Source: Haematomicrobium sanguinis DSM 21259
GTDB taxonomy: Bacteria; Actinomycetota; Actinomycetes; Actinomycetales; Micrococcaceae
Reading direction: 5' to 3'
Assembly (NCBI RefSeq): GCF_000688395.1
Contig: NZ_JIAG01000001.1
Coordinates: 62,001 to 126,000, forward strand
DNA: 64,000 nucleotides
Part shown: piece after piece, positions 6,524-41,306 of the stretch
How the letters are laid out: the number at the start of each line of letters is the position of its first letter
Position numbering within the stretch: position 1 is the stretch's first letter
The notes under the pieces: generated by a model
Told to the model about the DNA's origin: nothing
The model's input: the letters and a program-made list of their open reading frames with translations, nothing else
Database searches by the model: none
Position numbers and translations under genes: made by a program

Positions 6524-6978
6524 TACTCGTCACCCCGCTTGAAATCCGGTGACGGGGCCGGGAGCGGATCGAATTCTGTGGCGTCGTCCACGTTCTGGTC
6601 CGGCTCTTCCTCGCTATAGGTGGAGTGGCTGGCAACGCGGCGGTCTTCGATATCGTCTTGCAGCTCGTCCTGACGGGCTAACACCCAGGAACGGTAGATG
6701 ATGGCGAGCATGAAGGAGGTGACGCCGAAGCCGATCACAATGGCCGTGAGCATGAGCGCTTGCGGGAGCGGATCGTTATATTCGTATGGCGGAATATCTT
6801 CGCCGAAGAGCGGAGCCAACCCGGCATAGCCCCCGGTCATCAGCAACAGGATATTGGCGGCGTTGGTCAGGAGCACCAAGCCGAGCAATACGCGGGTCAG
6901 GCCGCGTTCAAGCACCAGGTAGATTCCAAAGCCGAACATCGCGCCCATGATGACCAGCAGCGTTAAGTTGACGCTCAT
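6523..6978 (-). CDS. mrpC: Mrp/Mnh Na+/H+ antiporter subunit C
   Basis: A 151-residue NuoK-like subunit with three membrane helices in the first 115 residues, including the conserved LVLLTNAANILLL segment and QALMLTAIVIGFG. The tail is acidic (EEEPDQNVDDATEFD). Its ATG overlaps the end of mrpA (ATGA). No separate mrpB lies between A and C because the B domain is fused to MrpA. Confidence 0.93.
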   Translation of the reverse strand: MSVNLTLLVIMGAMFGFGIYLVLERGLTRVLLGLVLLTNAANILLLMTGGYAGLAPLFGEDIPPYEYNDPLPQALMLTAIVIGFGVTSFMLAIIYRSWVLARQDELQDDIEDRRVASHSTYSEEEPDQNVDDATEFDPLPAPSPDFKRGDE

Positions 6979-9900
6979 GAGGCACCCCCCGGATTTTCCT
7001 TCGCGTCACCCACGGTGACACTCGCGCCGGAGGAGGCATCGCCGTCGTTCTTCTGTTGAGATCCGTGAAGGACGTTGCCGCTATCCTGCTCCGCGCGGTA
7101 GTCCAGGTGGGAGCCGAAGGAGCGGACCACGTCCAGAATCAAGCCAACCACAATGAGGTAGACGCCGATGTCGAAGATCGTGGAGGTCGCGAATTTGATG
7201 TCGCCGAAGACGGGCACGTCGTAGAAGGTGATAATCGCTTGCTGAAGCGCGTTCCCGCCGAGCAGCACGGGAACCAGCGCCGAGAGCGAGACTGTTCCCA
7301 GGCCAATGCCAAGCATCGTGCCGGCGGTTGCCGGGCTCGCCTCGGCCAGCTCGATCCGGCCTCCGGCCAAGTAGCGGATGGTCATGGCGAGCCCCGCGGT
7401 GAGCCCGCCCGAGAAACCGCCGCCGGGCGTATTGTGGCCGGTCAGGAGCAAGAAAATGGACACCACCATAATCGAGTGGAAGAGCAGCCGAGTCACAATT
7501 TCGAGCACGATGGAGCGCCGCTCGGGGGCGAGGGTGCGCCCGGCGACCAACCAGGGGTTGCGCTTGGCGACGTAGAACTGCTCGGCGAGCCGACGCGCCG
7601 CGTATTCGCGGCCGGGCTCCACAATTTGTTCCAGATTGCGCCCCACGGTCCCGGATTGCACGTGCGATGCCCGAATGCGCATGTCCGAGCGGCCGCGGAT
7701 GAAGATCAGGCTCGCGACGCCCGTTGCCGCAATGGCCAGCACCGACACCTCGCCGAAGGTATCCCAGGCGCGGATGTCCACGAGGGTCACATTGACCGTG
7801 TTGTGGCCGCCGCCCACCTCATATGCCAATTTCGGCATATTAAGCGAGATGGGTTCGAAGATGCGCGAACCCATGGCCAACATCGTGACCACCATGACGG
7901 TCAGACCGCTCAGCGCGGCGGTCACGGCGCGCAGCCGCCGGAACTGCTTGGTGCGCCGGCCCCACATGCTGGCCGGCAAAACGCGCAGCGCCAGCACAAA
8001 TGCCACCAGCACAATCGTCTCCACGAGCAACTGGGTCAGGGCCAGATCCGGTGCTCCCTGGAGCGCGAATAGCACCGCCGTGCCGTAACCGGTCACCGAC
8101 ACCAGAATTACCGCCATGAAACGCTTGCCGGCGCGAATCGCGGCGATCGCCCCCACAATCATGGTTGCCCCGACAATTACTTGCACGGGCGTATCCCAGG
8201 CGTAGACAGACCCTTGAAAATTGACGCCGTTGACCGCCATGACGCCCCACGGGGTCACAATGGCCGCCGCCAGGATCACAAAAAGATAGAACGTGAGCGA
8301 GCCGCGCTGAGTTTTGCCGGTGACCCACCGGGCGAGCTCATCGACGCCGAAAATGGACTCGTTGTAGAGCTTGCGTGATTCGACGGGGCCCGGAAGCGCA
8401 TTTTGCACGCGCCACACCTGTTTGCGCCCAAAGAACGCCGCCACGCCGAGCGCAAGCGTCAGCACGGACAGCCAGAGCGCCGGTGTGAAACCGTGCCAGA
8501 GCGCAATGTAGGGCGCCTTTTCGCCCTCGGGCAACGGGAAGAGCTGGGCGTAGGGTTCAAAGAGCGGCGCCCACGCTTGCGGGTAGACGCCGAACACGAT
8601 GGTGCCCAGCGCCAAAATCCCCGGCGCCGCGACGAAGCTCCAAGACACGGGGCGCACCACGCGGACACAGTCGGATTGCTTGCCGGAGAAACCGCCCCAC
8701 ATAAAGCGCGCCGAGTACGCAAAGGTCAGCACCGAACCGAGCACAATGCCGACCATCAGCACCCACGCCACGCCGCCGTGCTCCACCGCGTTGTTCCAGA
8801 ACGACTGGTACACCGCTTCCTTGGACACAAACCCCAATAGCGGCGGCACCGCGGCCATGGACGCCGCGGCGATTCCGGCTATCCAGGTGACCTTGGGAAT
8901 CGATTGATAGAGCCCGGCGAGGTCGCGAATATCTCGGGTTCCAGCCTGGTGGTCAATGATGCCGACCACTAAGAACAGCGTCGCCTTGAAGAAGGCGTGC
9001 GCCACCAACAGCAGCAACCCGGCAAGCGCGCCCTCTTGCCCGCCGAGCCCCACGATCATCATCATGAAACCGAGTTGGCTGACCGTGCCATAGGCGAGGA
9101 TCAGTTTCATATCGAATTGGCGCATGGCCCGCCAGCCGCCGATCAGCATCGTGGCGAGGCCGAGCGTCATGACGGTCCACTGCCACGCCGGAAGCTCCGC
9201 AAACCCCGGTGCGAGCCGCGCCACCAAATAGATACCGGCCTTCACCATCGCGGCCGCGTGCAAGTACGCGCTCACCGGGGTGGGAGCGGCCATTGCGCCG
9301 GGCAACCAAAAATGGAATGGCACCAGCGCGGATTTGGACACCGCGCCAATGAGCATGAGTACGACGGCGATGCTCACCAAAGGCTCATTGGTCACCAGGT
9401 CGGGGGCTTGCGCGAGGATATCGGAGATGCGGAAAGTTCCGGCGAGCGTCCCGATCAGAACCATGCCCACGAGCATCGCCAGGCCGCCAAAAGTGGTGAC
9501 AATGAGCGCCTCGAGGGCTGCGGTGCGCGCAGATAGTTTGGTGCGCGAGTAGCCGATCAGCAGGTAGGACAGGATGGTCGTCAGTTCCCAGAAGACAAAG
9601 AGCAACAGCAAATTGTCCGAAATCACCAGACCGAACATGGAGGCGGCAAAGGCGAGAAGTTGTGCGCCAAAGGGACCCAGGTTGGGGTCATCCTTTTTGA
9701 AGTATTTGGCACAGTAGGCGAGCACCAATGCGCCAATTCCAAGAATCAAGATGCTCAGCGTCGCCGCCAGCGCATCCATCCGCAGGTCAATATTGAGGCC
9801 GATTTGCGGGACCCAGGACAGGGTTCGGGACTCGGGCGAATCCGGTGCGCCCGGCAGCCCGGCCTGATTTGGCGCCAGGTAATTTCCGAGGGTGGCCAGC

Positions 9901-10022
9901 AGCCACACGAAGCCCGCTGCCGGGGCAAGAGCCAGAATATAAAAGGCGTTGCGCCCCATTTTCCGAAAGAAAAGTGGCGCCACGAGTGCCATCGCGTACA
10001 GGGCGACGAGCACAATAATCAT
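6975..10022 (-). CDS. mrpA: Mrp/Mnh Na+/H+ antiporter fused subunits A and B
   Basis: Largest subunit of the Mrp antiporter, about 1015 residues. The N-terminal part is NuoL-like ([28 protein letters not shown] motif region near residue 240, [10 protein letters not shown] near residue 345), with the further MrpA-specific helices after residue 600. From about residue 810 to 970 it carries an MnhB/MrpB domain ([18 protein letters not shown], then PGGGFSGGL), so subunits A and B are one chain, as in many actinobacteria. I prefer the ATG at 10022 because the protein then begins with the family's hydrophobic first helix and AGGA lies 8 bp upstream; an in-frame ATG at 10058 would add 12 residues. 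The gene diverges from the MFS gene with a 43-bp gap and heads the operon A-C-D-E-F-G. Confidence 0.95.
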   Translation of the reverse strand: [1015 protein letters not shown]

Positions 10023-28397: not shown

Positions 28398-28738
28398 ACA
28401 TGAACTTCACACCGCTTCACAGGGCATAGTTCAGTATGGTGATTTCAACACCGACATCCCATGTTACTTGGTACAACGCCCCGAGTCGAACCGAGGCAAC
28501 ACTGTTGAAGATTCGGCCACGGTCACAGTATGATAACTACCGTTGCCGCGTCGGTTTTTCGCCCTCTTGCGATCTGCTCACCGGCACATGTTCTACGCGT
28601 CCGGGGGGACACGCAACGTAGGCCTGTCTGGCTTTTCGGCTCTCCCCTTATGCGCATTCTGCCTTGGTCACCCTTGGCAAAATATCCACGCTTACACGGT
28701 TTTTCGGGGGGAGAATCGCGAATGTCAGGTCATCAGTC
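28398..28738. other. Gene-free region between tRNA-Trp and the polysaccharide operon
   Basis: This 341-bp stretch should hold the promoters of the divergent tRNA-Trp and phosphoglycosyltransferase genes. I see no strong -35/-10 pair. A tRNA-like fragment with a T-loop-like GTTCGAC and CCA on the minus strand lies near 28469-28543, but its anticodon arm does not fold properly. No gene is supported. Confidence 0.5.
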
Positions 28739-30220
28739 ATGAGCCTGGGCACCGACACACACGGGCCCTCACGGCTTTCCAGTGAATTTTCTCACGAGGC
28801 ATCGGCCTCAAAATCGTCAACGCGCGCCGGCGTTGCGTCCAATCCGACTGCCGTTCCGGCACCGGGCGCAGAAGCGTCCGCGCAAGGGCACGCACAGCAA
28901 AACCAGCCGCGCCAGCGCCGCTCCTTTGTCGCGCTCACGCTCTCCATCCTCGATCTTGCGGTAGCAGCCGCCGGTCTGATGATCCTCGCTCTCACCAGCC
29001 AGGGCGAGGTAATCCTGTTGGAGAGTCTGGCCATCGGAGTGTGGTGGGGCTACATCCTCTTGCGCACCGCCAGCGAGTACAGCTTGCATCACCGTATCCG
29101 CCCACGCATCCCGGTCGAAGCCAGCGTACTGGTGATCGTGGGCTTCGCCGCGGCCTCATACATTGACGCCGGCGAATCCTTAGAACTGCACCCCTTGGTG
29201 CTGATCATGATCGCCATGACTGCGGCAAGCGTGTTGGCCCGTGTTTTCGCCCAGCGAGTCTATAAGCCGCGCACCCTCGTTGTCCTCAGCGGCCAGAACG
29301 CCGAGTCAGCCCCCGCCCCGCACCCCCGCGCCCGTGTGGAGCGGCTTTACATCTCCGATGCCGCGCTAGCCAATCCTCCCGCTGTTGTACACACGGTGGT
29401 GACCCGAGCGCGCGAGGCGAGTGCCGCCGTCGTACATCTTTCCCCGCAGCTCCCGCTGGACACTCTGGCAATTTCCACCCTGAGCTGGGAGTTGCGCAAG
29501 CAACGCGTCGACATTCACATGAACGTTTTTGAGGCGCCGATTCACGCTTCGCGCATACGCACGGTGCTGACTCCCGCGGGGGCCCAACTCAAGATTGCAC
29601 CGCCCTACCCGTCCACTCTGATTCGCGTGCTCAAGCGCAGTTTCGACCTTGTCGGATCCTCGCTGCTGATCATTGCGGCCGCGCCGATCATGCTGGTCGC
29701 CGCAATTGGGGTCAAGGTCACGAGCCCGGGGCCGATCATTTACCGGCAAGAGCGCATTGGCCTGGATGGCGCGAGCTTTAATATCCTCAAATTCCGCAGC
29801 ATGCGCGATGGCGCGGACGCCCACTTGCTACGCCTGATGGCCGAGCAAGGCAACGGCGACAAGCCGCTCTTCAAGGTGGACAATGACCCGCGCGTGACCT
29901 CGATCGGCGCGTTTATTCGCCGCTATTCGATCGACGAGCTGCCGCAATTGTTCAACGTCTTCTCCGGGAGCATGAGCCTGGTCGGGCCGCGGCCGCAACG
30001 GCCCAACGAGGTGGCACTCTACACCCCGCAGGCGATGCAACGCCTCGGCGTGCGTCCGGGCATGACCGGTGCGTGGCAAGTGAGCGGACGGTCGCAACTG
30101 AGCTGGGAGCAGGCCATCGAGCTGGATCTGGATTATGCCCACAATTGGAGCCTGCTGACCGACGTGCGGATCATGTGGCGCACGGTCAAGGTTGTGGTTT
30201 GCGGGGATGGTGCCCAGTAG
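28739..30220 (+). CDS. Polyprenyl phosphoglycosyltransferase (initiating sugar-phosphate transferase)
   Basis: A 493-residue integral membrane enzyme that transfers the first sugar phosphate to undecaprenyl phosphate, starting the surface polysaccharide repeat unit. The N-terminal 60 residues are hydrophilic and Ala/Ser-rich, followed by about four membrane helices and a CoA-binding-like region. The C-terminal bacterial sugar transferase domain (about 300-490) has KRSFDLVGSSLLIIAAAP, SPGPIIYRQERIG, FKVDNDPRVTSIGAFIRRYSIDELPQ as landmarks and RPGMTGAWQVSGRS. ATG 28739 is a choice; the open frame extends to 28664. It leads a four-gene plus-strand operon. Confidence 0.92.
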   Translation: MSLGTDTHGPSRLSSEFSHEASASKSSTRAGVASNPTAVPAPGAEASAQGHAQQNQPRQRRSFVALTLSILDLAVAAAGLMILALTSQGEVILLESLAIGVWWGYILLRTASEYSLHHRIRPRIPVEASVLVIVGFAAASYIDAGESLELHPLVLIMIAMTAASVLARVFAQRVYKPRTLVVLSGQNAESAPAPHPRARVERLYISDAALANPPAVVHTVVTRAREASAAVVHLSPQLPLDTLAISTLSWELRKQRVDIHMNVFEAPIHASRIRTVLTPAGAQLKIAPPYPSTLIRVLKRSFDLVGSSLLIIAAAPIMLVAAIGVKVTSPGPIIYRQERIGLDGASFNILKFRSMRDGADAHLLRLMAEQGNGDKPLFKVDNDPRVTSIGAFIRRYSIDELPQLFNVFSGSMSLVGPRPQRPNEVALYTPQAMQRLGVRPGMTGAWQVSGRSQLSWEQAIELDLDYAHNWSLLTDVRIMWRTVKVVVCGDGAQ

Positions 30221-30223
30221 TTC

Positions 30224-31483
30224 ATGAAGATTCTGCATGTCACCGAGTGTTTAGCATCCGGCACCGCAGCGGCGATTTTCGCCTACGTGCGTGCGATGCC
30301 CGGCGCGGAACACCACATCGTATACGCCCGGCGCCCCGAGTCCACCAGCCTGGAGACCGGTTGGGAGGAGCGTTTTGCCAGTCACCAGGAATTCCCGGCG
30401 GGCACGCTCAACCGCATCCGGCACACGCGCGCCCGGATCCGCGAAATCGCACCGGATTGGGTGTATTCGCACTCCTCCTGGGGCGGGTTGTACGCACGCG
30501 CGGCGGCCCTTGGCACCTCCGCTGCTGGTGGCCCCGTGCGCCACGCCTACACCCCGCATTGCTTCGCCTTTGAGCGCCGCGATGTGCCCGCTGGGGTGCG
30601 GATAGCTATTCGCGCCTTGGAGGCCGTCCTCGCCCTCAACACTCACGCATTCGCGGCGTGCTCGCCCGGTGAGGCGCGCCTGGCCCGCGCCTTGCCCGGG
30701 CGGGCGCAGGTGATTCACGTTCCCAACGTCGGCGGGCAGGAGGCTCGCGCGGCGATCCCGGCAAAGATGCACGACGGCGATGCCTCCAAACACGGCGCAA
30801 TCCTGCGTTTAGTGGGGGCTGGCAGGGTGAACGCGCAGAAGGATCCGGAATACTTTGCGCGCGCGGCCGCAGTTTTGCGCGGGGCGGGGGTGCCGCTGGA
30901 GGCGACCTGGATTGGCGATGGCGACGCGGATCGCGTCGCCGAGCTTGAGTCACACGGCGTTCGGGTGACCGGGTGGCTCAATGGCGAAGAATACCGGCAG
31001 ATCCTGTCCGAGAGTGACGTGTACCTCCATTCGGCCAGGTGGGAGGGGTTCCCGATTACGGTGCTGGAGGCCGCGGATGCGGGACTGCCGGTGATTGTTC
31101 GGCAGATTAGCGCTTTTGAGTCTTCCGGCCTCGCCTCGATCGACGAGCCCGAAGACATTGCGGCCCACCGCGAGGACATTGTGAGTGCCGAAGGGCGCGC
31201 CCGATTGCGCACTCTCACCGCGCGCGCCCTGGAAAGCCACACCCCGGAGGCGCAGCGGCGGGCTTTGGCCGAGATTTTTGGGGTCGAGTCGACTGACGTG
31301 GCCGGCGAAGGTTCTGTGGATGCTGCGGGGGCGCTGGGCGCTGTAGGCGCGTTGGGCGCGCTGGGCGCTGTAGGCGCGTTGGGCGCGTTGGGCGCTGGGG
31401 GTGCGCTGGGCGCCGGGGGTGCCGCGGGTGCGCTGGGCGCCATGCGGGACAGCGCGCCGGACCGGGGCGAGGTTTTGCGATAG
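30224..31483 (+). CDS. Glycosyltransferase family 4 with C-terminal Gly-Ala-Leu repeats
   Basis: A 419-residue GT4 (GT-B fold) enzyme for extending the lipid-linked oligosaccharide. The N-terminal KILHVTECLASG is followed by a C-terminal nucleotide-sugar domain with LVGAGRVNAQKDPE near 205, the ESDVYLHSARWEGFPITVLEAADAGLPVI region near 265-293 including the E-x7-E-like motif. After about residue 366 the protein carries 9-residue repeats of the type ALGAVGALG encoded by a 27-bp tandem repeat (31331-31443). Start 3 bp after the preceding stop. Its TAG stop overlaps the GTG of the next gene. Confidence 0.88.
   Translation: MKILHVTECLASGTAAAIFAYVRAMPGAEHHIVYARRPESTSLETGWEERFASHQEFPAGTLNRIRHTRARIREIAPDWVYSHSSWGGLYARAAALGTSAAGGPVRHAYTPHCFAFERRDVPAGVRIAIRALEAVLALNTHAFAACSPGEARLARALPGRAQVIHVPNVGGQEARAAIPAKMHDGDASKHGAILRLVGAGRVNAQKDPEYFARAAAVLRGAGVPLEATWIGDGDADRVAELESHGVRVTGWLNGEEYRQILSESDVYLHSARWEGFPITVLEAADAGLPVIVRQISAFESSGLASIDEPEDIAAHREDIVSAEGRARLRTLTARALESHTPEAQRRALAEIFGVESTDVAGEGSVDAAGALGAVGALGALGAVGALGALGAGGALGAGGAAGALGAMRDSAPDRGEVLR
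31331..31443 (+). repeat. 27-bp tandem repeat inside the GT4 coding region
   Basis: The unit beginning GCGCTGGGCGCTGTAGG recurs exactly with a 27-bp period (31331 and 31358) and then in decayed form to about 31443. It encodes ALGAVGALG-type nonapeptides at the GT4 C terminus, so copy-number change would keep the frame. Confidence 0.85.
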
Positions 31484-32649
31484 TGCGGTCTCAATGGGGC
31501 ACGCGAGCAGGCTCTGGTTGGGCGGCCGGGATGCTTTCGATCGCGCTAGTGCTGACCGGGTGCGCTGGTCCAGCCGGCGCACCCGGTCCTGGAGGCACAA
31601 GCACTGGAGGCACGGGCCTTGGAAGTGCCGGCTCTGCGACCTCTGGCCCAGACGCCGGCTCCGGGCAGCCCCCATTTTCGTTGGACGCCAAGAGTGCCGA
31701 TGCCGGCGACGAATCGGCAGGAATGAAGGTCACCGACGCAAGGTCGGTCGGGAAGCGCAGTTGGTCGCTCGCCGTGGACACGAAGAACGTTGACCCGAAG
31801 GCGGCGCGGGTCGAATCCATCAACCTCTTGGTCACTCTGCCCGAAGGCTTCTCTTCTGACCGCGACTACCCGGTGATCTATCTTTTGCAAGGATCCGAAT
31901 CAACCTTTATGCAATGGTTTGATAGCGGCTACGTAGAAGAGCTCTTTGCCGGGCAAGACGTCATTTTGGTGATGCCGGAGGCAGGGGAAGCGGGCTGGTA
32001 CAGCAACTGGGCGGACTCGCCCATCGCTCAGCAGTGGCGGGACTTTCATCTGAACCAAATGATCCCGTGGGTAGACCGAAACTTACCCACGCGCACCGAC
32101 CGCGAGCAACGCGCGGTGATGGGAGTGTCGATGGGCGGCTACGGGGCCATTACCTACGCCGAAGAGCGTCCCGACCTCTTTGGCAGCGCCGTCAGCCTCT
32201 CCGGGCTCTTGTCTACCGAGAACCCGGATACCACCGCATTTGTGCGCAACCAGGTCAAGGCCGTCACCGGCAGCCCGAATGACCTCGGCGGCGCTGCCGA
32301 AAGCTCCGACGTCGAGGCCGAAGCGGAACAACAGGACGGCGTCGGGATGGCAAATCCCCTCGATAAGGTCCAAGCGCTTCAAGACACCCGGGTCTGGGTG
32401 ATCAGCGGAACGGGATCACCGGGACAACCGGTGGCCACCGGCGGCGGCATGGAAGCGGCGCTCACCGATTCGGCCCGAAGTTTTGTCAAGCGCGCCAAGG
32501 AGTCCGGCGTGAGTGTGTCCGAAACCTATTTCGGCGCCTCCGAAAACTGCAATGCCGACCACAGTTGGGGTTGCTGGCGCACCCAAATAACCGACCTGCT
32601 GCCTGCCCTGATGAAAACCTTGACAACCACCCCCAGAAACTCCGAATAG
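31483..32649 (+). CDS. Esterase-fold lipoprotein (PF00756 type)
   Basis: A 388-residue exported lipoprotein. Lipobox LTGC with Cys27 is followed by a Gly/Ala/Pro linker (about 28-70). The alpha/beta-hydrolase domain shows YPVIYLLQGSESTFMQWF near 130, and nucleophile elbow GVSMGGYGA with Ser216. The late HSWGCW motif (near 365) supplies a candidate His. It resembles FrmB/antigen-85-like esterases. Position between a glycosyltransferase and the tandem hydrolase suggests acting on acyl groups of the polysaccharide outside the membrane, which is inference. GTG start at 31483 overlaps the previous stop (TAGTG). Confidence 0.85.
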   Translation: MRSQWGTRAGSGWAAGMLSIALVLTGCAGPAGAPGPGGTSTGGTGLGSAGSATSGPDAGSGQPPFSLDAKSADAGDESAGMKVTDARSVGKRSWSLAVDTKNVDPKAARVESINLLVTLPEGFSSDRDYPVIYLLQGSESTFMQWFDSGYVEELFAGQDVILVMPEAGEAGWYSNWADSPIAQQWRDFHLNQMIPWVDRNLPTRTDREQRAVMGVSMGGYGAITYAEERPDLFGSAVSLSGLLSTENPDTTAFVRNQVKAVTGSPNDLGGAAESSDVEAEAEQQDGVGMANPLDKVQALQDTRVWVISGTGSPGQPVATGGGMEAALTDSARSFVKRAKESGVSVSETYFGASENCNADHSWGCWRTQITDLLPALMKTLTTTPRNSE

Positions 32650-32658
32650 GGAAATCAC

Positions 32659-34371
32659 ATGACACTAGAAGCGCAATTGCCGGATACCTCCGTCGAAGAA
32701 TCGCCAACGATCGGTCGCGCCACGTGGATTTCCACGCCAGAACGTTCGTTGCTCGCCTGGTATCACCGGCCCGAATCCGGGGAGGCCAAAGGTGTTGTCG
32801 TCATCGCGCCGCCGATTGGACGCGAACAAGTCATCAGTTACCGCACCATGCGCATCCTTGCCATTATGTTGGCCGAACAGGGCTGGGCGGCCGTGCGGTT
32901 CTCTTGGTCTCACACCGGCGAGTCCGAAGATCTGCCCGCCGGTGCCACCTGGACTACAGAATGGTTGAAAGACCTGGAAACGGTGCGCACTTGGGCCGCG
33001 AACACCACCGGTTTTAGCGACGTGAATGCGATTGGTTTGCGCATAGGCGCCTCGCTCCTGGGCGATCCACGCGTCACAGGCTTCGCCCAACGCATCGCTT
33101 GGGAGCCCATCGCCGGAAAGAAGTTTTTGCGTCAGCACGCGGCCCTTCGCCGTTTGAGCGTACCGGAAATTCCGCGCTGGGATGCCACCAGCGAAGAGGT
33201 GATCGGTGCGCTCCTCACTCCTGAGAACGTGGCCGATCTTGAGAGAATCGTCTCCCCAGAACCCTCCGAGAGCGGCACTGACGGAAAGCTCATAGTAGAC
33301 AAAGAGCCCGACCCGAAGGTCGCTAAGGGTGTCTATGCCGTCGTTTCGCTCTACGCTCGAGTACCGCCCGAGTCATTGCAACGCCTCATCGACTTGCTGC
33401 CGGACGCGCCGCAACAGTCCTTGCCCCAATGGAAGCCGGCGGACCGTGCCCGCATCTGGGTCCCCGGGTTCGACACCGACGTCATCGAAGAGATTGTCAG
33501 CGTGGGTCCGGATCACTTGCCGGCTATCTTCACCTATCCGCTCTCCGGGGCGCGCACCACTGAGGCCACGCTCATGTTTGCTGCGTCCTCCGAACCGCGG
33601 GACGGCATCACCGGCTTGTGGGTGCGCGCGGCACGGCGACTGGCGGCCAACGGCATTGCGGTGGTGCGCTCGGAACGGCGCGGTTCCGGAGACCTGGGTC
33701 GCAGACACGATCTGGTAGACCCCAACCCGTTCTCGGCGAGCGCCATTGCCGATGCTCAGAACACCGCGCGTTGGCTCAAGGAGGCCACCGGCGCCCGCAT
33801 CACCGGAACCGGGCTGTGCGCGGGAGCGTGGCTGTGCGGCGCGGCCGCCGCCGAGGCCCCGATCGAGCGCGTGCTCATGCTCAATAATGTTGCCTGGCGT
33901 ACCGGTCTGGGGTATTTCGAAGACCTTTACCGTGACCTGAACCCGGAGAACGTTCTCAAGGACATTCGAGAGGGCGAAAAGGGCGAGGCACCCAGAACCT
34001 TCAAGTCCAAGGTCAAGGAACTGGTACGCAACCGCGGCGGATACCGGTTGTGGCTTGCCCTGGGAAGCCTGGACAAGGTAAACGCACCCGAACGCGTGCT
34101 GGAACTCGCCTCACGCCACGCCACCTTGGATGTGTACTTGGGCGAGGATGATTTCAAACTCTTCACCTTTGAAAAAGGGCTCCCCGGCCTCAAACGGCTT
34201 CAGCGCGCGGGACGTCCGGTCACCGTCCACCGCAGCGACCCAATGGACCATGCTCTCCTTGCGCCGGCGTCGAGGTTGCGGGCGTTGCGGGTCATCGAGG
34301 AATACTTCGGAATTGATACCCCGGATATTGACTCTGCGGTGGTCCAGGAGACAACAAAGGTCACCGTGTAG
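32659..34371 (+). CDS. Tandem alpha/beta-hydrolase with altered nucleophile sites
   Basis: A 570-residue cytoplasmic protein made of two alpha/beta-hydrolase-like halves, similar in layout to the two exosortase-associated hydrolases but in one chain. Half 1 (about 20-260) starts with VVVIAPPIGREQ (near 46) and has GLRIG at 126-130, so Arg128 stands where Ser is expected. Half 2 (about 290-550) has ERRGSGDLGRRHDLVDP and GLCAGA at 385-390 with Cys387, plus candidate acids Asp497/498 and His531 (MDHALL). A Cys-Asp-His set is known in dienelactone hydrolases. ATG is preceded by AGGGA. Its end overlaps the converging glycosyltransferase gene by 11 bp. Function unknown. Confidence 0.8.
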   Translation: MTLEAQLPDTSVEESPTIGRATWISTPERSLLAWYHRPESGEAKGVVVIAPPIGREQVISYRTMRILAIMLAEQGWAAVRFSWSHTGESEDLPAGATWTTEWLKDLETVRTWAANTTGFSDVNAIGLRIGASLLGDPRVTGFAQRIAWEPIAGKKFLRQHAALRRLSVPEIPRWDATSEEVIGALLTPENVADLERIVSPEPSESGTDGKLIVDKEPDPKVAKGVYAVVSLYARVPPESLQRLIDLLPDAPQQSLPQWKPADRARIWVPGFDTDVIEEIVSVGPDHLPAIFTYPLSGARTTEATLMFAASSEPRDGITGLWVRAARRLAANGIAVVRSERRGSGDLGRRHDLVDPNPFSASAIADAQNTARWLKEATGARITGTGLCAGAWLCGAAAAEAPIERVLMLNNVAWRTGLGYFEDLYRDLNPENVLKDIREGEKGEAPRTFKSKVKELVRNRGGYRLWLALGSLDKVNAPERVLELASRHATLDVYLGEDDFKLFTFEKGLPGLKRLQRAGRPVTVHRSDPMDHALLAPASRLRALRVIEEYFGIDTPDIDSAVVQETTKVTV

Positions 34372-35542
34372 AACGTCTCCGGAACGCGAGCACCCGTTGA
34401 TACACGCCGCGATAACGCTGCACGGTGTCATCGATGTCGAAACGGTCGCTGGCTAGTTTTTTAGCGGCCCGCGAGTATTCTTTGCCGCCGCGGAGCACCT
34501 CGCCGAGCGCCGCAGCGATCCGGTGCGGAGAACGCGCCGGGACAAGCAGCGAGTCTTCGATGGCCAAGAGGTGGCAGTCCCCGACGTCCGTCGTCACCAC
34601 GGGAACCCCAGCGCTCAGCGCCTCAATACCCGCCATGGGCAGCGCTTCCCCGTGCGAACTGGAAATCACCATGGCGTCGGCCCGCGCCAAAAGTACCGAC
34701 ACGTCCTTGACCGGGCCGTGCAACCGCACCCGTGCTGACACGCCGGCCCGCTCTACCAGCGCCACCAGGTCGGCATTGCTCGCGGTGACCTCGCCGCCCG
34801 CGCACTCCAGGATGGCCTGCGGATACTCCTCGCAAAATTCGGCAAAGGACCGAATGAGCGTTTCGTGGTCCTTCATCGGGTGCCAGCGCGACAGACTGAC
34901 AATGACCGGACCCTCCTGATTCTGCTCAACCGCTTCGGCCAGGTCCGGAGACCGGGTCGATGCCGGCGAAGTGCCCTGGACGGCATGGTCGATCGCGGTC
35001 CCGTTGAGAATGACTGGAATGCGACTGTGCCGGTGGTAGCCCATGGTGGCGGCATAGTTGCGAGCGGACGGTGAACACGCCACCACCGCATCAAACCGCC
35101 TGCTCAGCAACGCGACAACGCGCCCCACCACACGGGCGGCCCGCGAGGACTCGTGACCGCCACTCGTGTGCAGCGTACTGACCCGAGCCACCGCCTTACG
35201 CTCCCCCGCACGCCGCCCAGGAAAGGGCACAGTAAAGTGCAACGGGGTGAGGGCGGACACCAGATCGGATTGCATCAGGTGGGAGTGCACTACGTCGATG
35301 TCCAGGTTACGCACCAAACGGTGCAATGTGGCCAATACCGGCAATGGGTTCTTAGCGCTCTTGGCCAGGTTCCCGTAGTGCACGCTGGCCGCGGCCGAAT
35401 CCAACCTGCTGCTCAGCGCGTCCGGGCCCATAAGAACAAAAACGTGGTGTTCATCGCGGGGATCGGCACGCGCACCAATGGCCTCGATCAGAGTTTGCGC
35501 ACCACCGGTCTCCGCACTGTTGACCACATGGAGTACCTTCAT
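34361..35542 (-). CDS. Glycosyltransferase family 4
   Basis: A 393-residue GT4. N-terminal KVLHVVNSAETGGAQTLIEA binds the acceptor side; VVHSHLMQSDL near residue 86; the C-terminal sugar-nucleotide domain has VSLSRWHPMKDHETLIRSF near 235, and SSHGEALPMAGIEALSAGVPVVTTDVGD near 318-345 with the conserved Glu pair. ATG 35542 is the natural start, as it places MKVLHVV at the N terminus; it overlaps the wzy-like stop by 4 bp. It is the last gene of the minus-strand polysaccharide operon. Confidence 0.92.
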   Translation of the reverse strand: MKVLHVVNSAETGGAQTLIEAIGARADPRDEHHVFVLMGPDALSSRLDSAAASVHYGNLAKSAKNPLPVLATLHRLVRNLDIDVVHSHLMQSDLVSALTPLHFTVPFPGRRAGERKAVARVSTLHTSGGHESSRAARVVGRVVALLSRRFDAVVACSPSARNYAATMGYHRHSRIPVILNGTAIDHAVQGTSPASTRSPDLAEAVEQNQEGPVIVSLSRWHPMKDHETLIRSFAEFCEEYPQAILECAGGEVTASNADLVALVERAGVSARVRLHGPVKDVSVLLARADAMVISSSHGEALPMAGIEALSAGVPVVTTDVGDCHLLAIEDSLLVPARSPHRIAAALGEVLRGGKEYSRAAKKLASDRFDIDDTVQRYRGVYQRVLAFRRRSTR

Positions 35543-36912
35543 GTCTTCACACCCCCAAATACACTCCGCCGCTGGATGAGGTCTGCCGTGCAAGCAAACG
35601 CGGCCAACACCCAAAACGGCGCATAAAGAATTTCGGTCACGGTAAAGGACGAGACGAAAATGGCCACCACAGCCGGAAGTATGGGCACGGCCGAATCGGG
35701 CAACCCCAAAGAGCTACGCACACAGAACACGAGGAGAATCCCAAAAAGCGCAGTCCCCACTAACCCGGTACCGTAGATCACCTCCACGTACGTATTGTGC
35801 GTAAATTCCACCACAAACGCTCCGGGCGGCGTCTGGTACACCGAACGCAGGTGTTCGCCAATGGTGCCGACCCCGAACCCGGTCACCGGACGCTCCGCGA
35901 ATAAACTCATGGCCAGGTTCCAGGCCTCCAACCGGGAATCCACATTCTCACCGGCAATGTTGCTCTTTTGTTCTAACGCCTGGGAGAACCGATCGCTCAT
36001 GAACGTGACGGCCAGCCCCAACGCCACCGCCCCCAAAGCCACCACCCAGGCAAAGGCGCGGCGCCCCGAGCGCCCCACCACCAGCAGCGAGACCAAACCG
36101 AGTCCCACCGCCAAATAGGTGCCGCGAGAGAGCGTGCCGGCGGTGGCCACAAGGATCGGTAGCATCAAGAGCGCGGTCACAAGTTTTACCGGCAACGGCA
36201 CCCGGGAAGCCACGAAAACTCCCATACCAAGCATCAGCGCCGCCGCAAGCAGGACCCCGTAATCGTTGACGTCCCCGTTAATGGGGCGCATCACATCCAC
36301 TTCGCCGCGCACATAGTGCAGGATCACTCCCAAGCTGCCCACACACATGCCGGCCACGAAGGCGAGGGCGAGCAGCAGAAGGTTCTGGCGTCCGTCGCCA
36401 AACTGCATGAGCGCCAGGATCGCGAAGGCCCAGCCAAACACCGTCGCCGCGTAGCTGGTAGTGGAGATGACCTCGCCGCTCAGCGCACCCGTGACAAACA
36501 TCCAGGCTCCCAGGGCCGCCACCAGCGCCGGGATCCAGTGCATCCTTGGCCACAGTTTCCGAGCGGCAAGCGCCAGCACGGTGGAAAGCACCAGGAAAAC
36601 CACCGCAGGGCGCAACGGCATCATGGGCCATTCGTCGAAGGTCCACATGGTGCCGAGCACCGTAAAGAAGAGGAAAAGAATCAACGGCGGATAGTTAATG
36701 CAGAGCAGGAGCAGCGCTACCCCGGCTACGGCGACACCCGCCAGCGGGGCGAAAATGAAGACGCACGCGGCCAGCATGAGGCTCATTAGGCCAATCGTCA
36801 CGGCAACTTGCCACCGCACTAACGGCGTGAGCATCGATCGGCCGCGCTCAGCGACCTGCCCGCGCTCGGAGGCAACGGAGGATTCCGGCAACGTCACATC
36901 GACCGCGTTCAT
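35539..36912 (-). CDS. O-antigen polymerase/ligase-like protein (Wzy)
   Basis: A 457-residue membrane protein with about 11-12 helices. The late region with a large external loop has the ligase/polymerase signature: SRLEAWNLAMSLFAERPVTGFGVGTIGEHL near 320-350 and FTHNTYVEVIYGTGLVG near 370. It would polymerise lipid-linked repeat units outside the membrane. The first 30 residues are hydrophilic. Both ends overlap their neighbours by 4 bp, so the operon is tightly coupled. Confidence 0.88.
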   Translation of the reverse strand: MNAVDVTLPESSVASERGQVAERGRSMLTPLVRWQVAVTIGLMSLMLAACVFIFAPLAGVAVAGVALLLLCINYPPLILFLFFTVLGTMWTFDEWPMMPLRPAVVFLVLSTVLALAARKLWPRMHWIPALVAALGAWMFVTGALSGEVISTTSYAATVFGWAFAILALMQFGDGRQNLLLLALAFVAGMCVGSLGVILHYVRGEVDVMRPINGDVNDYGVLLAAALMLGMGVFVASRVPLPVKLVTALLMLPILVATAGTLSRGTYLAVGLGLVSLLVVGRSGRRAFAWVVALGAVALGLAVTFMSDRFSQALEQKSNIAGENVDSRLEAWNLAMSLFAERPVTGFGVGTIGEHLRSVYQTPPGAFVVEFTHNTYVEVIYGTGLVGTALFGILLVFCVRSSLGLPDSAVPILPAVVAIFVSSFTVTEILYAPFWVLAAFACTADLIQRRSVFGGVKT

Positions 36913-37910
36913 CGCTCCATGCCAGCCCTGAAACCTGTTTTTGCGTCCCGCTTGGCTAGATGCCAGCGCAGCGCAAGCGTACCGCCGGGGACACGCGAGA
37001 CGAGGGCTTTCGCTTGGACGGCGCGCTGCCCGCGCAACAACTTTGCCGCCCCGCGGATTTCACGACCGGCATCGCGCAGACGCCCCGCGCGCAAAAGTTG
37101 CTCAAACCGGCCAAGCCGCTGGGAGGGCGGCCCCATCTCGATCCGCGCTCGTGCGATCGCGGCTTCGCGTTCGCTCATCTCGTCGCCAAAACGTTCCAGC
37201 GCCCGATTCATCACCTCGGTCTCCGCGGCGTAGACCCGCTCACCATTGCTTGACACCGACTCGCCCGTCCACCGATACAGCGCCTGCGGCTCCTCCTGAC
37301 GCAAAATCTCCCAACCGCCGAACGCGGCGCGCAACCACAAATCCCAGTCCTCGCAGGCGCGCAGACCTTCATCAAAAACACCGATATCACGGACCAGCGC
37401 CCGCGGAAAAACACTGAAAATACTGCACACGTTGGCGCGTAGCATCGCCTCGCGCACCCGCTCGGGTCCGGGATGCGGGTCGCGGAAAAAAGTTCGCCCC
37501 CCTGCCACACCGGCAGGGTTAAGCACGACGGCGTTGCAGGTCACCAATGCTCGGGGGCGCCCGTGTTCCACGAGCATCTCGATCGCACGGCTCAGGTATG
37601 CAGGTAGCAGAATGTCATCGGCGTCCACAATGGCCAGGTATTCTCCGGAAGCCGCCTCGATAGCTCGATTGCGGGCGGCTGCTTGGCCGCGATTGTCCTG
37701 GGCCAGTACGCGAATGCCGATTCGCGAACCGGGCGCCCAGAGCGTCGCGAAGTGTTCGGCAATTGCGCGGGTTCGATCCTGCGAGCCGTCGTCGACAATG
37801 ACGAGTTCAATGGGCCCGGGATAATCCTGTGTCAGGACACTTCCGATCATTCCTGGAAGGGTGTCCTCCGCGTTATAGGCGGCGGTGATAATACTGACCG
37901 ACGGTTTCAC
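36909..37910 (-). CDS. Glycosyltransferase family 2
   Basis: A 333-residue GT-A enzyme. SIITAAYNAEDTLPGMIGSVLTQ at the N terminus, IVDDGSQDRTRAIAE near 40, the metal-binding DADD near residue 95 and the EDWDLWLRAAFGGW acceptor-side motif near 190 are intact. The C-terminal 80 residues are basic and helical. The start is GTG at 37910, which overlaps the preceding TGA (GTGA); longer frames to 38093 run into that gene. Confidence 0.92.
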   Translation of the reverse strand: MKPSVSIITAAYNAEDTLPGMIGSVLTQDYPGPIELVIVDDGSQDRTRAIAEHFATLWAPGSRIGIRVLAQDNRGQAAARNRAIEAASGEYLAIVDADDILLPAYLSRAIEMLVEHGRPRALVTCNAVVLNPAGVAGGRTFFRDPHPGPERVREAMLRANVCSIFSVFPRALVRDIGVFDEGLRACEDWDLWLRAAFGGWEILRQEEPQALYRWTGESVSSNGERVYAAETEVMNRALERFGDEMSEREAAIARARIEMGPPSQRLGRFEQLLRAGRLRDAGREIRGAAKLLRGQRAVQAKALVSRVPGGTLALRWHLAKRDAKTGFRAGMER

Positions 37911-39010
37911 GTGGTGTCCCCTTGGCGCAACAACCGGCGATAAAGATCTTCCCAGCGCTCCAGGGAGCGCTCGAGGGTGAGTTTCTCCACAAGCTCTCGG
38001 CCCTGATCGGCCCTGCGTTGCGCTTCGCCCTTGCTTGTCAACGCCTCCACGAGTGTCTGGGCGAGCATGCTTGGATCTCCCGGTTGCACGCACCAGCCAC
38101 CTTGGGTTCCATGTACGAGTTCCGAAATGCCGCCGACGTCGCTGGCCACCACCGGGACGCGGTGCGCGAAGGCTTCCAAAATCACGTTGGGCAGGCCCTC
38201 ACTCAGTGACGGCACCACGAGAAGTTCCGCCTCGGCGAGGAATTGTTCGGGCTGTGCAAAGTCCCGCAGTTCAACGCTTGCGGCAAGCACGGGGTCGGCG
38301 GCGATCCGTTCGCGTAGGGCGCGTTGCAGTTCGATTTCCTCGGCAGCCTTGGCGGGCCCGGCCATGACCAGCCGCGCAGACGGTACGCGTTCAATGACCT
38401 GCGGCCAGGCATCGAGGAGGTTCTGGTGTCCCTTGCGCCAGTCCACCCGGGCGAGCATGTGGACCCGATCAGCTACCGGATTCCGCTCCGGTTGCGGCGG
38501 AACGTCGACACCTAAATAGACGGTGTCGGTCTTGAGGGGGTCCGCTCCCCGGCGCACCGCATTATCGGTGACCGCGACGGCGCAACCGACAATAGCGTCA
38601 GCCTCTCGGTAACTGAGTTTGTCCAGGGCCCGTAGCAGCCCGCCCTTCCACTCGTCCAGACCCACTTCGGCAACGATGGAGAGTGGGCGGTGCCCCTTGG
38701 GCAAGGTCGCGGCGACCAACGGCCCCCACAGGTTGGGGGTGGGAGCCCAAGCGTGGAACACCTCGGGTCTCTCCTCGCGCAGGATTGCACGTACCTGACG
38801 CAAAAAGGCGAGGTCAACCTTGGCGGTTTTATTCAGTACCGCGGTGGGAACCACCTCGGCGAGGGCGTCCACCAGGGGTCCGGGCCGCACCACAATGACA
38901 CTGTGTTCGAACTCGGGGTTGTTCCGGCGCGCGTGCACCTTTAAAAGAGAGAGGAGCTGCCGCTCCGCTCCGCCCATCTCCGCCCCAGTGAGGTGAAATA
39001 CCTTTTTCAT
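37907..39010 (-). CDS. Glycosyltransferase family 4
   Basis: A 367-residue GT4 with KKVFHLTGAEMGGAERQLLSLL at the N terminus, FHAWAPTPNLWGPLVA near 85, LARVDWRKGHQNLLDAW near 186, and the SLSEGLPNVILEAFAHRVPVVASDVGG region near 270-296 containing the conserved Glu pair. It differs clearly from the other two GT4 enzymes of this locus. Start overlaps the stop of the chain-length gene (ATGA-type overlap). Confidence 0.92.
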   Translation of the reverse strand: MKKVFHLTGAEMGGAERQLLSLLKVHARRNNPEFEHSVIVVRPGPLVDALAEVVPTAVLNKTAKVDLAFLRQVRAILREERPEVFHAWAPTPNLWGPLVAATLPKGHRPLSIVAEVGLDEWKGGLLRALDKLSYREADAIVGCAVAVTDNAVRRGADPLKTDTVYLGVDVPPQPERNPVADRVHMLARVDWRKGHQNLLDAWPQVIERVPSARLVMAGPAKAAEEIELQRALRERIAADPVLAASVELRDFAQPEQFLAEAELLVVPSLSEGLPNVILEAFAHRVPVVASDVGGISELVHGTQGGWCVQPGDPSMLAQTLVEALTSKGEAQRRADQGRELVEKLTLERSLERWEDLYRRLLRQGDTT

Positions 39011-39687
39011 CCGCTATTGACATCCAGTTTTCGACGATTGCGGAGCAACCAATAACCGCCGGCGGCGATAAATGCTCCGGTGACACCGGTGGCCGCAATG
39101 ACCAATATCGAGGAGGGGGTGGAGCTCTTGGTCGGCGGAATAGCCGAGGTCACCACGCGTAGCGCGGCGCCCGAGCCGGTGAGCGATTGCTTCACCTTGT
39201 CTGAGGAGGTCATCACATCTTGGTAGGTCCGCGCGACGTTGACGGCGCTCTCCGGGGTGTCGGCGGTCACCCGTACGCTAAAGAGAAGCGGCGAGTTCGG
39301 GATGAGTTGTTCCACGGCCGTGTACTCGACATCCTCACCGACGCGTTGAGCCACGACGTCTGAAGTGGAGACGTCGCTCGTGAGTGCCGCGACCACGGGG
39401 GTGAGCAGTGTCAACTGCCCCGGGTCGGTTGGTGGGAGCTCACTGTTAGAGCCCTGGGTCGTCGGCAGGCTGGCCCCCGGGATGAGCGCAAAGGTGCTCG
39501 TGGCAACATATTTGTCCGCGCGACTCGCGTTCACGACCAGCCCGGCGCCGAGTCCCACCAGCGCGCCGATGGCGATGACGGCCAGATAACGCACCCAAAG
39601 GGGTGGGCGCTTTGCGGTGTCGGTGCTCGCAGGTGGATTCTGCTGCGCCACGGACGCCGAGGCGTCCGTCTGCGTATCTTTGCTCAT
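39007..39687 (-). CDS. Chain-length/CapA-type membrane protein without kinase
   Basis: A 226-residue protein with two membrane helices, one near residues 33-52 (YLAVIAIGALVGLGAGLVV) and one near 195-213, and an extracytoplasmic part between them, as in Wzz/CapA/VpsC-type polysaccharide co-polymerases. The first 28 residues are a hydrophilic cytoplasmic lead. There is no Walker motif, and no tyrosine kinase or phosphatase gene elsewhere in the locus. Overlaps wzx and the next GT by 4 bp each. Confidence 0.8.
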   Translation of the reverse strand: MSKDTQTDASASVAQQNPPASTDTAKRPPLWVRYLAVIAIGALVGLGAGLVVNASRADKYVATSTFALIPGASLPTTQGSNSELPPTDPGQLTLLTPVVAALTSDVSTSDVVAQRVGEDVEYTAVEQLIPNSPLLFSVRVTADTPESAVNVARTYQDVMTSSDKVKQSLTGSGAALRVVTSAIPPTKSSTPSSILVIAATGVTGAFIAAGGYWLLRNRRKLDVNSG

Positions 39688-41306
39688 ACCGTTGTATTTT
39701 CCCGTCTGATTATTGCCGCAATCCAGGAACGTGCAGCGTGGGGTAGCGACGATAGTTTTCCGCGCACCGAATCTAGGTCATTGTCGCGAAGCGGTTTTAT
39801 GGCGGGGACGCCCAGCAGGATTCCGGCCAATGCGAGAATCGCGCCAAGTGCCAATGCCACCAGCGTGGGCAGCCCCGCGATCCAGGACACGAGTCCGCCT
39901 GCGCCCACTACCAGCACAATTGCCAGGTAGCGCAATAGGTCTGTCAGGCGGGTCATGGGCAGGTTAGCTGTGCGTTTGGCCGTCCAGGCCAGCGCGAGGG
40001 CGAGGCACAACTGCCCCACAGAATTTGCGATGGCGGCACCGTATATTCCCCACGCCGGGATGAGCGCGAGGTCGAGTCCAATCGTAAAGACGGCGGCGAC
40101 CGATTGGGCTAGTACCACGTGTCTCACCTTGTTGAAGGCCATTAAGGTTGCGGTGATGACAGCGATGGAGGACGCGGTCAGCACCGGAATTACCCCGGCT
40201 ATCAGCACGACATCCGCGGCCGCCCGGTACTGTTCGCCCCACAGCAGCTTCACCAGCGGCGCCCCGATCGCCAGCAGCAGCCCCGAGGCGACGGCGCTCA
40301 CCACCATCAAGACCCGGAGCCCGACGTCAAAACCAATACGTACCGCAGCTTCGCGCCCGGCCGCTAGTAGCGTGGTCACGGTCGGCAAAATGACCGGGAC
40401 CAACGCCATGGGAACCTGAATCGCCGCGGTTACCGCCGCAAACGCCACCGCGTAGTAAGCGATTTGCGCGGGCTCATCGGTATGGAAGATGGCTAAGAAT
40501 GCCAATTCGCTGCGCTGAACCACCACAGTGTGCAGTAACACCGCAAATCCGGCCAGGACCGCGAATCTCAGCATGGACCCGACGCGCCCGTCCCCTGTGC
40601 TCGCGGGGTCGATAGCGGACACGGGCGGCTCAAGATCTTGTGTCTCCGCTGGCGCATCGGCGCTTGCCAGGGCGCGCACCGAGCGCACCAAGAGGGTTGC
40701 AGTGATCGCAGCAGAAGCCGCCGTCGCAAGCGCGGAAATCCACAACACCTCGTTCACACCGGCTCCCATCAGCAACGCGATGATCGAAGCGGGAAGCGAC
40801 AGCAACTGGGTTACCAGGCTCACCAGCATCGCGCGGCGGAAGCGGTGCAGCCCTTGCAGACCCTGCGCCGCGACCCCGTGGAAGGTGGCGGCGAAGGCAT
40901 AGAGGGCGGCCGCCGTCCACGCGGACACTCTGTCGCTTTCATAAAACTGGGCGACCACCACGCAGGTGGCGGCAGCGGCTAAGGCGGGAAGAATGGTGAT
41001 CCGCAACGCCGCGAAGGTCAATCGGCGCATGTCTTCTCCGCGGTGGGCTCCCAATGCTTGCGCGAGCCAACGTTGCAACGCCAGCGGCAATCCCAGCACA
41101 AAAACCAAGGACGCCATGGTGGCGGTGAAGATCAAAAAGGAGAGAACGCCCTGCTCTGCGGGCCCAAGAGTGCGAGCAAGAATGACGGAAAGGACGAGAG
41201 TCAGGATTTGCGGAAGTGCGGTCGCTGCGACATTCCATGCCGCTCCCTGCGACACGGACTTTACCGAAATGTGTGCGTCATTGTTACGCACAGTTGATTC
41301 GCCCAA
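39684..41306 (-). CDS. Lipid-linked oligosaccharide flippase (Wzx/MOP family)
   Basis: A 540-residue membrane protein with about 14 helices. The start (SVSQGAAWNVAATALPQILTLVLSVILARTLGPAEQGVLSF) is typical of Wzx/RfbX proteins of the MOP superfamily, which flip the undecaprenyl-linked repeat unit. A hydrophilic loop near 215-240 and a basic C-terminal tail are present. It is the first gene of the minus-strand operon; 143 bp separate it from the divergent aminotransferase gene, where both promoters must lie. Confidence 0.92.
   Translation of the reverse strand: MGESTVRNNDAHISVKSVSQGAAWNVAATALPQILTLVLSVILARTLGPAEQGVLSFLIFTATMASLVFVLGLPLALQRWLAQALGAHRGEDMRRLTFAALRITILPALAAAATCVVVAQFYESDRVSAWTAAALYAFAATFHGVAAQGLQGLHRFRRAMLVSLVTQLLSLPASIIALLMGAGVNEVLWISALATAASAAITATLLVRSVRALASADAPAETQDLEPPVSAIDPASTGDGRVGSMLRFAVLAGFAVLLHTVVVQRSELAFLAIFHTDEPAQIAYYAVAFAAVTAAIQVPMALVPVILPTVTTLLAAGREAAVRIGFDVGLRVLMVVSAVASGLLLAIGAPLVKLLWGEQYRAAADVVLIAGVIPVLTASSIAVITATLMAFNKVRHVVLAQSVAAVFTIGLDLALIPAWGIYGAAIANSVGQLCLALALAWTAKRTANLPMTRLTDLLRYLAIVLVVGAGGLVSWIAGLPTLVALALGAILALAGILLGVPAIKPLRDNDLDSVRGKLSSLPHAARSWIAAIIRRENTTV

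Follow-up and report, generated by a model that had tools for sequence, protein, structure and literature searches.

The window, by which we mean the whole 64-kb stretch of DNA analysed here, contains an intact open reading frame of 570 residues (32659-34371, + strand) that encodes a tandem alpha/beta hydrolase, P0001. The gene is embedded in a polysaccharide locus that also encodes the initiating sugar transferase, a Wzy_C protein, a flippase and four glycosyltransferases, and its upstream neighbour is a putative esterase lipoprotein with a lipobox-like LTGC motif (seen by eye). The preliminary description of this DNA had placed the tandem gene beside an esterase lipoprotein in a polysaccharide locus, and the PF00756 match together with the glycosyltransferase, Wzy_C and flippase neighbours bears this out. 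The features of the locus are given below with window coordinates and strand; L031 (Psychromicrobium silvestre), L048 and L049 are the corresponding loci of the closest relatives.

28664-30220, +, polyprenyl glycosylphosphotransferase, the initiating sugar transferase (PF02397, TIGR03025)
30224-31483, +, glycosyltransferase (family match)
31483-32649, +, putative esterase lipoprotein, retained (PF00756, E = 1.6e-32; syntenic esterase in L031 and L048)
32650-32658, no strand, 9-base gap from the esterase stop to the tandem start, at the site of the five-gene carrier-protein block of the closest relatives (synteny; L031 block at 4079-9995)
32659-34371, +, tandem alpha/beta hydrolase P0001 (open reading frame, family searches, predicted fold)
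32659-33444, +, half 1 (residues 1-262), apparently without catalytic residues, hydr2_PEP-like (TIGR03101, E = 6.8e-12; fold)
33040-33042, +, Arg128 codon, nucleophile elbow of half 1 (GLRIGA; alignment)
33451-34329, +, half 2 (about residues 265-557), the Cys hydrolase half, hydr1_PEP-like (TIGR03100, E = 0.0017; fold)
33817-33819, +, Cys387 codon, predicted nucleophile (Cys in 59/59; between strand 380-386 and helix 388-396)
34150-34152, +, Asp498 codon, predicted acid (Asp in 46/59, 8 unaligned; just past strand 489-494)
34249-34251, +, His531 codon, predicted base (His in 49/59, 10 unaligned; past strand 521-525)
34361-35614, -, glycosyltransferase, convergent with the tandem gene (syntenic in L031, L048 and L049)
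35539-36912, -, Wzy_C / O-antigen ligase-like polymerase (family match)
36909-38093, -, family 2 glycosyltransferase (family match)
37907-39010, -, glycosyltransferase (family match)
39007-39687, -, chain-length-type protein (weak GNVR match, below cut-off)
39684-41306, -, polysaccharide flippase (PF01943)

Inspection of P0001 by eye revealed neither a signal peptide nor a lipobox, and the protein is therefore probably cytoplasmic. The elbow motifs are GLRIGA with Arg128 in half 1 and GLCAGA with Cys387 in half 2. The two halves are homologous, and their profile-profile alignment (E = 5.9e-7, probability 92%) sets Arg128 opposite Cys387, so the Arg/Cys pattern is not due to chance. Arg128, Cys387, Asp497/498 and His531, the residues singled out in the preliminary description, were all found at these positions in the translated reading frame. 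No Pfam family matched P0001 at E = 0.1. A whole-protein sequence search of the PDB returned nothing significant, the best match (E = 0.059) being an unrelated peroxidase.

The fold of P0001 was predicted with AlphaFold2, both for the whole protein (pLDDT 85.4, pTM 0.86) and for half 1 alone (pLDDT 87.8, pTM 0.87). In the predicted structure of half 2 the residue order is canonical: Cys387 follows strand 380-386, Asp498 follows strand 489-494 and His531 follows strand 521-525, so that the strand order, elbow, acid and His of an alpha/beta hydrolase are all present. Structure prediction had been proposed earlier as a check on these residues, and what it supports is their order along the strands rather than their contact. 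Solved hydrolases match residues 272-553 with Z values around 20. Dienelactone hydrolase 2o2g is among them (residues 273-552, Z 20.0, rmsd 2.7, 204 aligned), and feruloyl esterases and lipases equal or beat it (up to Z 21.1). Half 1 is a full hydrolase fold as well (lipase 9h0z, Z 18.0, rmsd 3.4, 207 aligned). Its last His is H160, and therefore it has no catalytic His at the usual site near the domain end. Half 1 thus apparently represents a dead hydrolase domain, in agreement with the earlier suggestion of a noncatalytic partner.

To describe conservation we used the 59 tandem sequences in which 300 or more positions were aligned, the window's among them; some genomes contribute two or three. 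A half-length copy from L054 and the split pair of L046 had fewer aligned positions and were left out. The set spans Actinomycetota (judged from named loci and from the class kinship of the other genomes) and Pseudomonadota. A first alignment of 24 sequences, including the window's, had shown Cys387 and Asp498 to be invariant and Arg128, Asp530 and His531 nearly so. In the larger set position 387 is Cys in 59/59, so the relatives lacking Cys that the preliminary description had named as evidence against its proposal were looked for and did not turn up. Position 531 is His in 49 sequences and unaligned in the other 10. Position 498 is Asp in 46, Glu in three, Ala in one and Gly in one (eight unaligned), and because of this conservation we assign the acid to Asp498. 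Of the Cys387-Asp497/498-His531 set originally proposed, Asp498 and His531 are thus retained and Asp497 is dropped. Cys387, Asp498 and His531 constitute the predicted catalytic triad of half 2.

At the elbow of half 1, Arg128 is common but not universal (Arg in 43, Gly in nine, Ser in five, Gln in one and Asp in one of the 59). The Gly128 sequences include the Shinella and Roseateles type. The five Ser128 sequences, with GFSLGG-like elbows, are second tandem copies in one genus, and half 1 may therefore not be dead everywhere. Either half 1 is not dead throughout the family, or these copies form a revived or less changed branch. In g6, another genus of the family (L050, L051, L052, L053, L056, L060 and L061), two tandem genes flank the carrier-protein block on either side; the half 1 elbow of the seven second copies has Ser in five, Gly in one and Arg in one.

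The preliminary description had also pointed to exosortase-associated hydrolases, and the best matches of the two halves are indeed to the hydr2 and hydr1 families of that system, albeit below the cut-offs. Scanned alone, half 1 matched TIGR03101 (hydr2_PEP, E = 6.8e-12) ahead of TIGR03100 (5.3e-5). The preference of half 2 for TIGR03100 (hydr1_PEP, 0.0017) over TIGR03101 (0.028) is weak by itself, and scanning the whole protein put the best hydr1 stretch in half 1 (28-94); the hydr1 label of half 2 therefore depends on relatives and on the scan of the separated halves. Relatives show the pairing more clearly. The tandem of L031 matches hydr2 and then hydr1 (3e-18 at 21-152 and 2.3e-9 at 272-397), and so does that of L042 (1.6e-21 at 36-230 and 5.6e-28 at 302-582). 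In Variovorax (L046) the two are split into adjacent genes, hydr2 (3.9e-24, GARLGA) followed by hydr1 (6.4e-14, GMCSGA). Since the half scans, the relatives and the Variovorax pair agree, the most natural reading of the tandem is that of a hydr2+hydr1-like pair in fused form. Its scores are far below the curated cut-offs (56.1 against 202.75 bits for TIGR03101, 37.8 against 168.45 bits for TIGR03100), and we therefore did not file P0001 as a member of either family. The window's genome has no TIGR03101 or TIGR03100 match over the cut-off, and no exosortase was found among the window genes scanned. Among the matches listed, the open-licence PMC literature does not describe the tandem family, and the main text of the PEP-CTERM paper (PMC1569441) makes no mention of a hydrolase, acyl carrier, acyl-CoA or ligase.

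We then considered what accompanies the tandem gene in other bacteria. Loci were chosen by tandem match and not by neighbours, and comprised 14 from the family, 20 from the class, 14 annotated plasmid stretches and L031, with some genomes supplying two loci. L031 was the one locus that a single-protein search of genome contigs yielded from 43 stretches. In many relatives the tandem is accompanied by a block of genes for five proteins: acyl carrier protein, amino acid:[carrier protein] ligase, acyl-CoA dehydrogenase, DUF1839 and GH2-like protein. In L031, L048 and L049 the order is sugar transferase, glycosyltransferase, esterase (none found in L049), carrier protein, acyl-CoA dehydrogenase, ligase, DUF1839, GH2-like protein, tandem and convergent glycosyltransferase. 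Synteny continues in L048 and L049 through the Wzy_C gene, two glycosyltransferases and the flippase, which were not found within the L031 stretch. The L031 block matches PF00550 (carrier protein), PF02771/PF00441 (dehydrogenase), PF00587 and NF005479 (ligase; 4.2e-99 and 331.5 bits for NF005479, whose cut-off is 357) and PF08893 (DUF1839, 1.3e-94); its GH2-like protein has only weak GH2-type Pfam matches. Two queries for the GH2-like gene found it in 23 of 50 regions, the window not among them. In many loci it lies directly upstream of the tandem (L031:7455-9995, L141:5536-8004).

The arrangement extends well beyond the closest relatives. Azospirillum sp. B510 and Mycetohabitans endofungorum share all six genes, in identical order, with Psychromicrobium, and in Rhizobium rhizoryzae the tandem is divergent from the block. 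The polysaccharide loci of Tsukamurella and its like have a carrier protein, a ligase and a phosphopantetheinyl transferase beside the tandem, with no dehydrogenase or DUF1839 within the stretch. In Shinella and Roseateles the tandem is accompanied by a carrier protein and an AMP-forming enzyme as the loader. Overall, a loader (amino acid or AMP ligase) is present within the stretch of 31 of the 48 tandem loci (window not counted); 17 have none within the stretch, some stretches being short or ended by a contig edge. L058 and L059 are tandem polysaccharide loci without a carrier block in the stretch and with the ligase elsewhere in the genome; such a block may serve several polymers in trans.

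We next compared the distribution of the tandem and the ligase across genomes, scoring the best candidates per genome (tandem, seven in the family and three in the class sample; ligase, 11 and five); thresholds were chosen after the lists had been seen. In the family sample the tandem occurs in at least 16 of 197 genomes (E below 1e-40) and the ligase in at least 15 (1e-20 or better). Among the matches scored, the two lists coincide except for the window's genome (G000), which has the tandem and no ligase. Four genomes with weak tandem matches (G001, G055, G142 and G188; 5e-5 to 7e-4) were left out as ordinary hydrolases. The two genes share a contig in 15/15 genomes and are <4 kb apart in 14; in G119 the distance is 7.5 kb, and a half-length tandem copy lies nearer to the ligase. 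In the class sample the tandem occurs in at least 18 of 394 genomes (1e-15 or better), the ligase in at least 16 (1e-60 or better) and both in 14; 80 genomes with a weaker tandem match were left out as ordinary hydrolases, and 17 with a weaker ligase match as a divergent group. Tandem and ligase are far apart in G276 and G468. Among the matches scored, the tandem is present without the ligase in G000, G364, G261 and G253, and the ligase without the tandem in G234 and G444. Carrier-protein and AMP-ligase genes adjoin the tandem in G364 and G261 (L097 and L101), and G253 is 84% complete, its tandem lying close to the edge of a contig. The Fisher values for these counts (1.4e-21 and 1.8e-20) ignore shared ancestry, and as the occurrences in the family are carried by three genera, they reflect few independent events.

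The exception is the window's genome itself, the estimated completeness of which is 99.99%. Genome-wide searches found no ligase, with a query that finds the L031 ligase at 5e-77 and a profile that matches 15 other genomes. No DUF1839 was found in the genome either; no control genome exceeded the cut-off in that search, and the model matches the L031 protein as given above. Also missing is any GH2-like relative at E = 0.01, with a query that finds relatives in other regions. The locus has no carrier protein, and a search limited to the 64-kb window found no acyl-CoA dehydrogenase. PF00550 has matches at three places in the genome, all outside the locus. One, in an 84-residue frame, is probably the fatty-acid carrier protein, and another is below the cut-off in a frame that looks spurious. 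The remaining one, over the cut-off, belongs to a 1430-residue frame (L137:3470-7759, - strand) that, read by eye, starts with an adenylation and a carrier domain and continues with membrane and acetyltransferase-like repeats; this carrier domain is a possible donor for the tandem. In the FastTree phylogeny the window's tandem groups with those of L049, L048 and L031 (support 0.979) within a larger clade (0.993), all ten other members of which carry the block. The genus sample consists of the window's genome alone. Since the window is nested among block carriers, loss in its lineage, presumably by deletion, is the simplest account.

On this evidence we slightly favor, with a probability of roughly 0.55, the reading that fused hydrolase pairs of this kind are acyl or aminoacyl transferases serving carrier-bound donors in polysaccharide loci, the donor arm having been lost here. 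Half 2 would be the enzyme, with Cys387 polarised by His531 and Asp498. The Cys would attack the thioester by which a small carrier protein bears the acyl group on its phosphopantetheine arm. The group, which in most relatives is probably an amino acid or derived from one, would then stay on the Cys until it is handed to a lipid-linked sugar unit, at a hydroxyl or an amino group. Half 1 would be a permanent partner and might dock the carrier or the sugar-lipid. The reaction, the acceptor and the role of half 1 are what we infer. We regard the Cys half as the carrier unloader because the carrier, the loader and the Cys enzyme recur, while the dehydrogenase, DUF1839 and the type of loader vary; transfer to sugar is the likelier outcome because many tandem loci make polysaccharide. 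The preliminary description had already suggested acyl transfer from a carrier. The carrier-protein neighbourhoods of relatives make this the likely chemistry. Counting against the reading are the 17 tandem loci in which no loader was seen and the five sequences with Glu, Ala or Gly in place of Asp498. As a whole, that interpretation is partly supported, and it had not foreseen the absence of the block from this genome. The locus in this genome would have kept the transferase and lost the donor arm, namely the dedicated carrier protein, ligase, dehydrogenase, DUF1839 and GH2-like protein. It follows that the enzyme uses another donor, acts as a plain thioesterase or esterase, or is a recent orphan here; its persistence without the donor arm means that the tandem may do something else.

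That the tandem is an intact relic, functionless in this genome since the loss of the donor arm, we consider improbable. It would fit the failure to find the ligase, DUF1839 and GH2-like genes genome-wide and the carrier protein and dehydrogenase in the window, as well as four substitutions (G85H, A191V, Y358F and P461G) at columns invariant in 23 other aligned relatives. The tandem nevertheless retains 69 of the 73 columns invariant in 14 close relatives, two of which lose more columns in the same leave-one-out test. At residue 85 in half 1 (32911-32913) the sequence reads SHTGES for SGTGES. Identity to the L048, L049 and L031 orthologues (47, 44 and 48%) is like that of the syntenic neighbours (34-56%, a range that leaves out a 28% glycosyltransferase pair with L031, taken as not orthologous), and third-position G+C (0.72) falls within the neighbour range (0.65-0.77). 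Because the columns are kept and both identity and third-position G+C resemble those of the neighbours, we see no sign of decay, although function is not thereby proven. Equally hard to favor, and if anything less probable, is an ordinary esterase or deacylase that acts on the finished or lipid-linked polymer together with the esterase lipoprotein, the carrier genes being incidental. The fold matches are feruloyl and other esterases, an esterase gene adjoins the tandem, and the tandem has been kept here although the ligase, DUF1839 and GH2-like genes are gone. Such an enzyme is harder to reconcile with Cys instead of Ser in every one of the 59 sequences, with the probable cytoplasmic location of P0001 and with the tight co-occurrence with the ligase.

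The strongest competitor, still unlikely in our view, shares its gene neighbourhood with the transferase reading. According to it, the Cys half would be an editing (type II) thioesterase that hydrolyses wrong or stalled acyl groups off the carrier, with DUF1839 performing the transfer. A Cys nucleophile tends toward transfer rather than hydrolysis, and this general property leans against editing. So does the distribution of DUF1839: single-sequence searches (E = 1e-4) detected none in the AMP-ligase loci L044, L097, L101 and L144 or in the ligase loci L040, L096, L098, L099 and L102. In favor of editing, PMC10318531 classes DUF1839 as a predicted papain-like Cys enzyme and suggests, from context, action on glycans at the cell wall. 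Likewise, in PMC2922099 the uncharacterised neighbouring protein Atu2574, which may or may not be a DUF1839 protein, was proposed in 2010 to be an amide ligase, that is, to form an amide bond.

The transferase reading bears on a system with a longer history. The amino acid:[carrier protein] ligase pathway goes back to Mocibob et al. 2010 (as cited in PMC2922099, PMC9437257 and PMC5370406). According to the prediction made in a 2010 note in proof in PMC2922099, the ligase system serves to join an amino acid to a sugar of the cell surface, and the 2022 review PMC9437257 calls the role of carrier aminoacylation unknown. Section 17 of PMC2922099, which deals with the ligase, names no alpha/beta hydrolase. 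For a MetRS-like system the same paper lists alpha/beta-hydrolase-type transacylases with carrier proteins, so the general idea of hydrolase-type transacylation is not new; a link between a tandem hydrolase and the ligase is not named in the accessible parts of PMC2922099 or PMC10318531. The main finding is one of context: in many relatives the tandem is a partner of amino acid:[carrier protein] ligases, and here that partnership has been lost. This bears on the role of the ligase. A strictly conserved Cys in a frequent partner of the ligase provides a concrete candidate for removing the amino acid from the carrier. A broader proposition, which we put forward only tentatively, is that the ligase has its missing transferase in the fused Arg/Cys hydrolase, within a tRNA-free amino acid decoration of polysaccharides. 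Cell-surface polysaccharides of Actinomycetota and Pseudomonadota would then receive amino acids or their oxidised products, and the tandem enzyme would have its unfused counterpart in the exosortase A hydrolase pair. A natural deletion of the donor arm would have taken place in the window's bacterium, the transferase being re-employed there with another donor. If this were true, it would hint at the roles of the exosortase A hydrolases (a Cys enzyme and a dead partner), and the window's strain would offer a natural example with the donor arm lost.

Among known systems, the amino acid:[carrier protein] ligase cassette is matched by the relatives' loci, which carry the ligase, carrier protein, acyl-CoA dehydrogenase-like protein and DUF1839; the window's genome differs in that no ligase was found in it. 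Dienelactone hydrolase is a Cys-nucleophile alpha/beta hydrolase. The resemblance noted to it in the preliminary description holds for the fold and the Cys nucleophile only, with conserved Cys, Asp and His residues that would fit its triad, and does not extend to membership of any Pfam family at E = 0.1. YcjY (5xb6) also has Cys at the elbow, GICAGA being aligned to LCvGA, but the sequence match is weak (E = 0.0074). Compared with Cys-nucleophile hydrolases in general, P0001 stands out by its tandem build with one half lacking catalytic residues. The TIGR03101/TIGR03100 hydrolases are likewise paired, as separate proteins side by side; P0001 is fused, hydr2 then hydr1, and scores below their cut-offs. 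L047, a B. cenocepacia locus, was considered as the published Bcam1330-1341 cluster, an identification for which the gene order gives no support. In that biofilm exopolysaccharide cluster of Burkholderia cenocepacia, Bcam1334 is labelled TIGR03100 in PMC3584217, which suggests for it a quality-control role like that of AlgL, PelA or PslG. It resembles the window's tandem in being a TIGR03100-type hydrolase in a polysaccharide cluster, and our results suggest acyl transfer as an alternative to AlgL-type quality control for Bcam1334.
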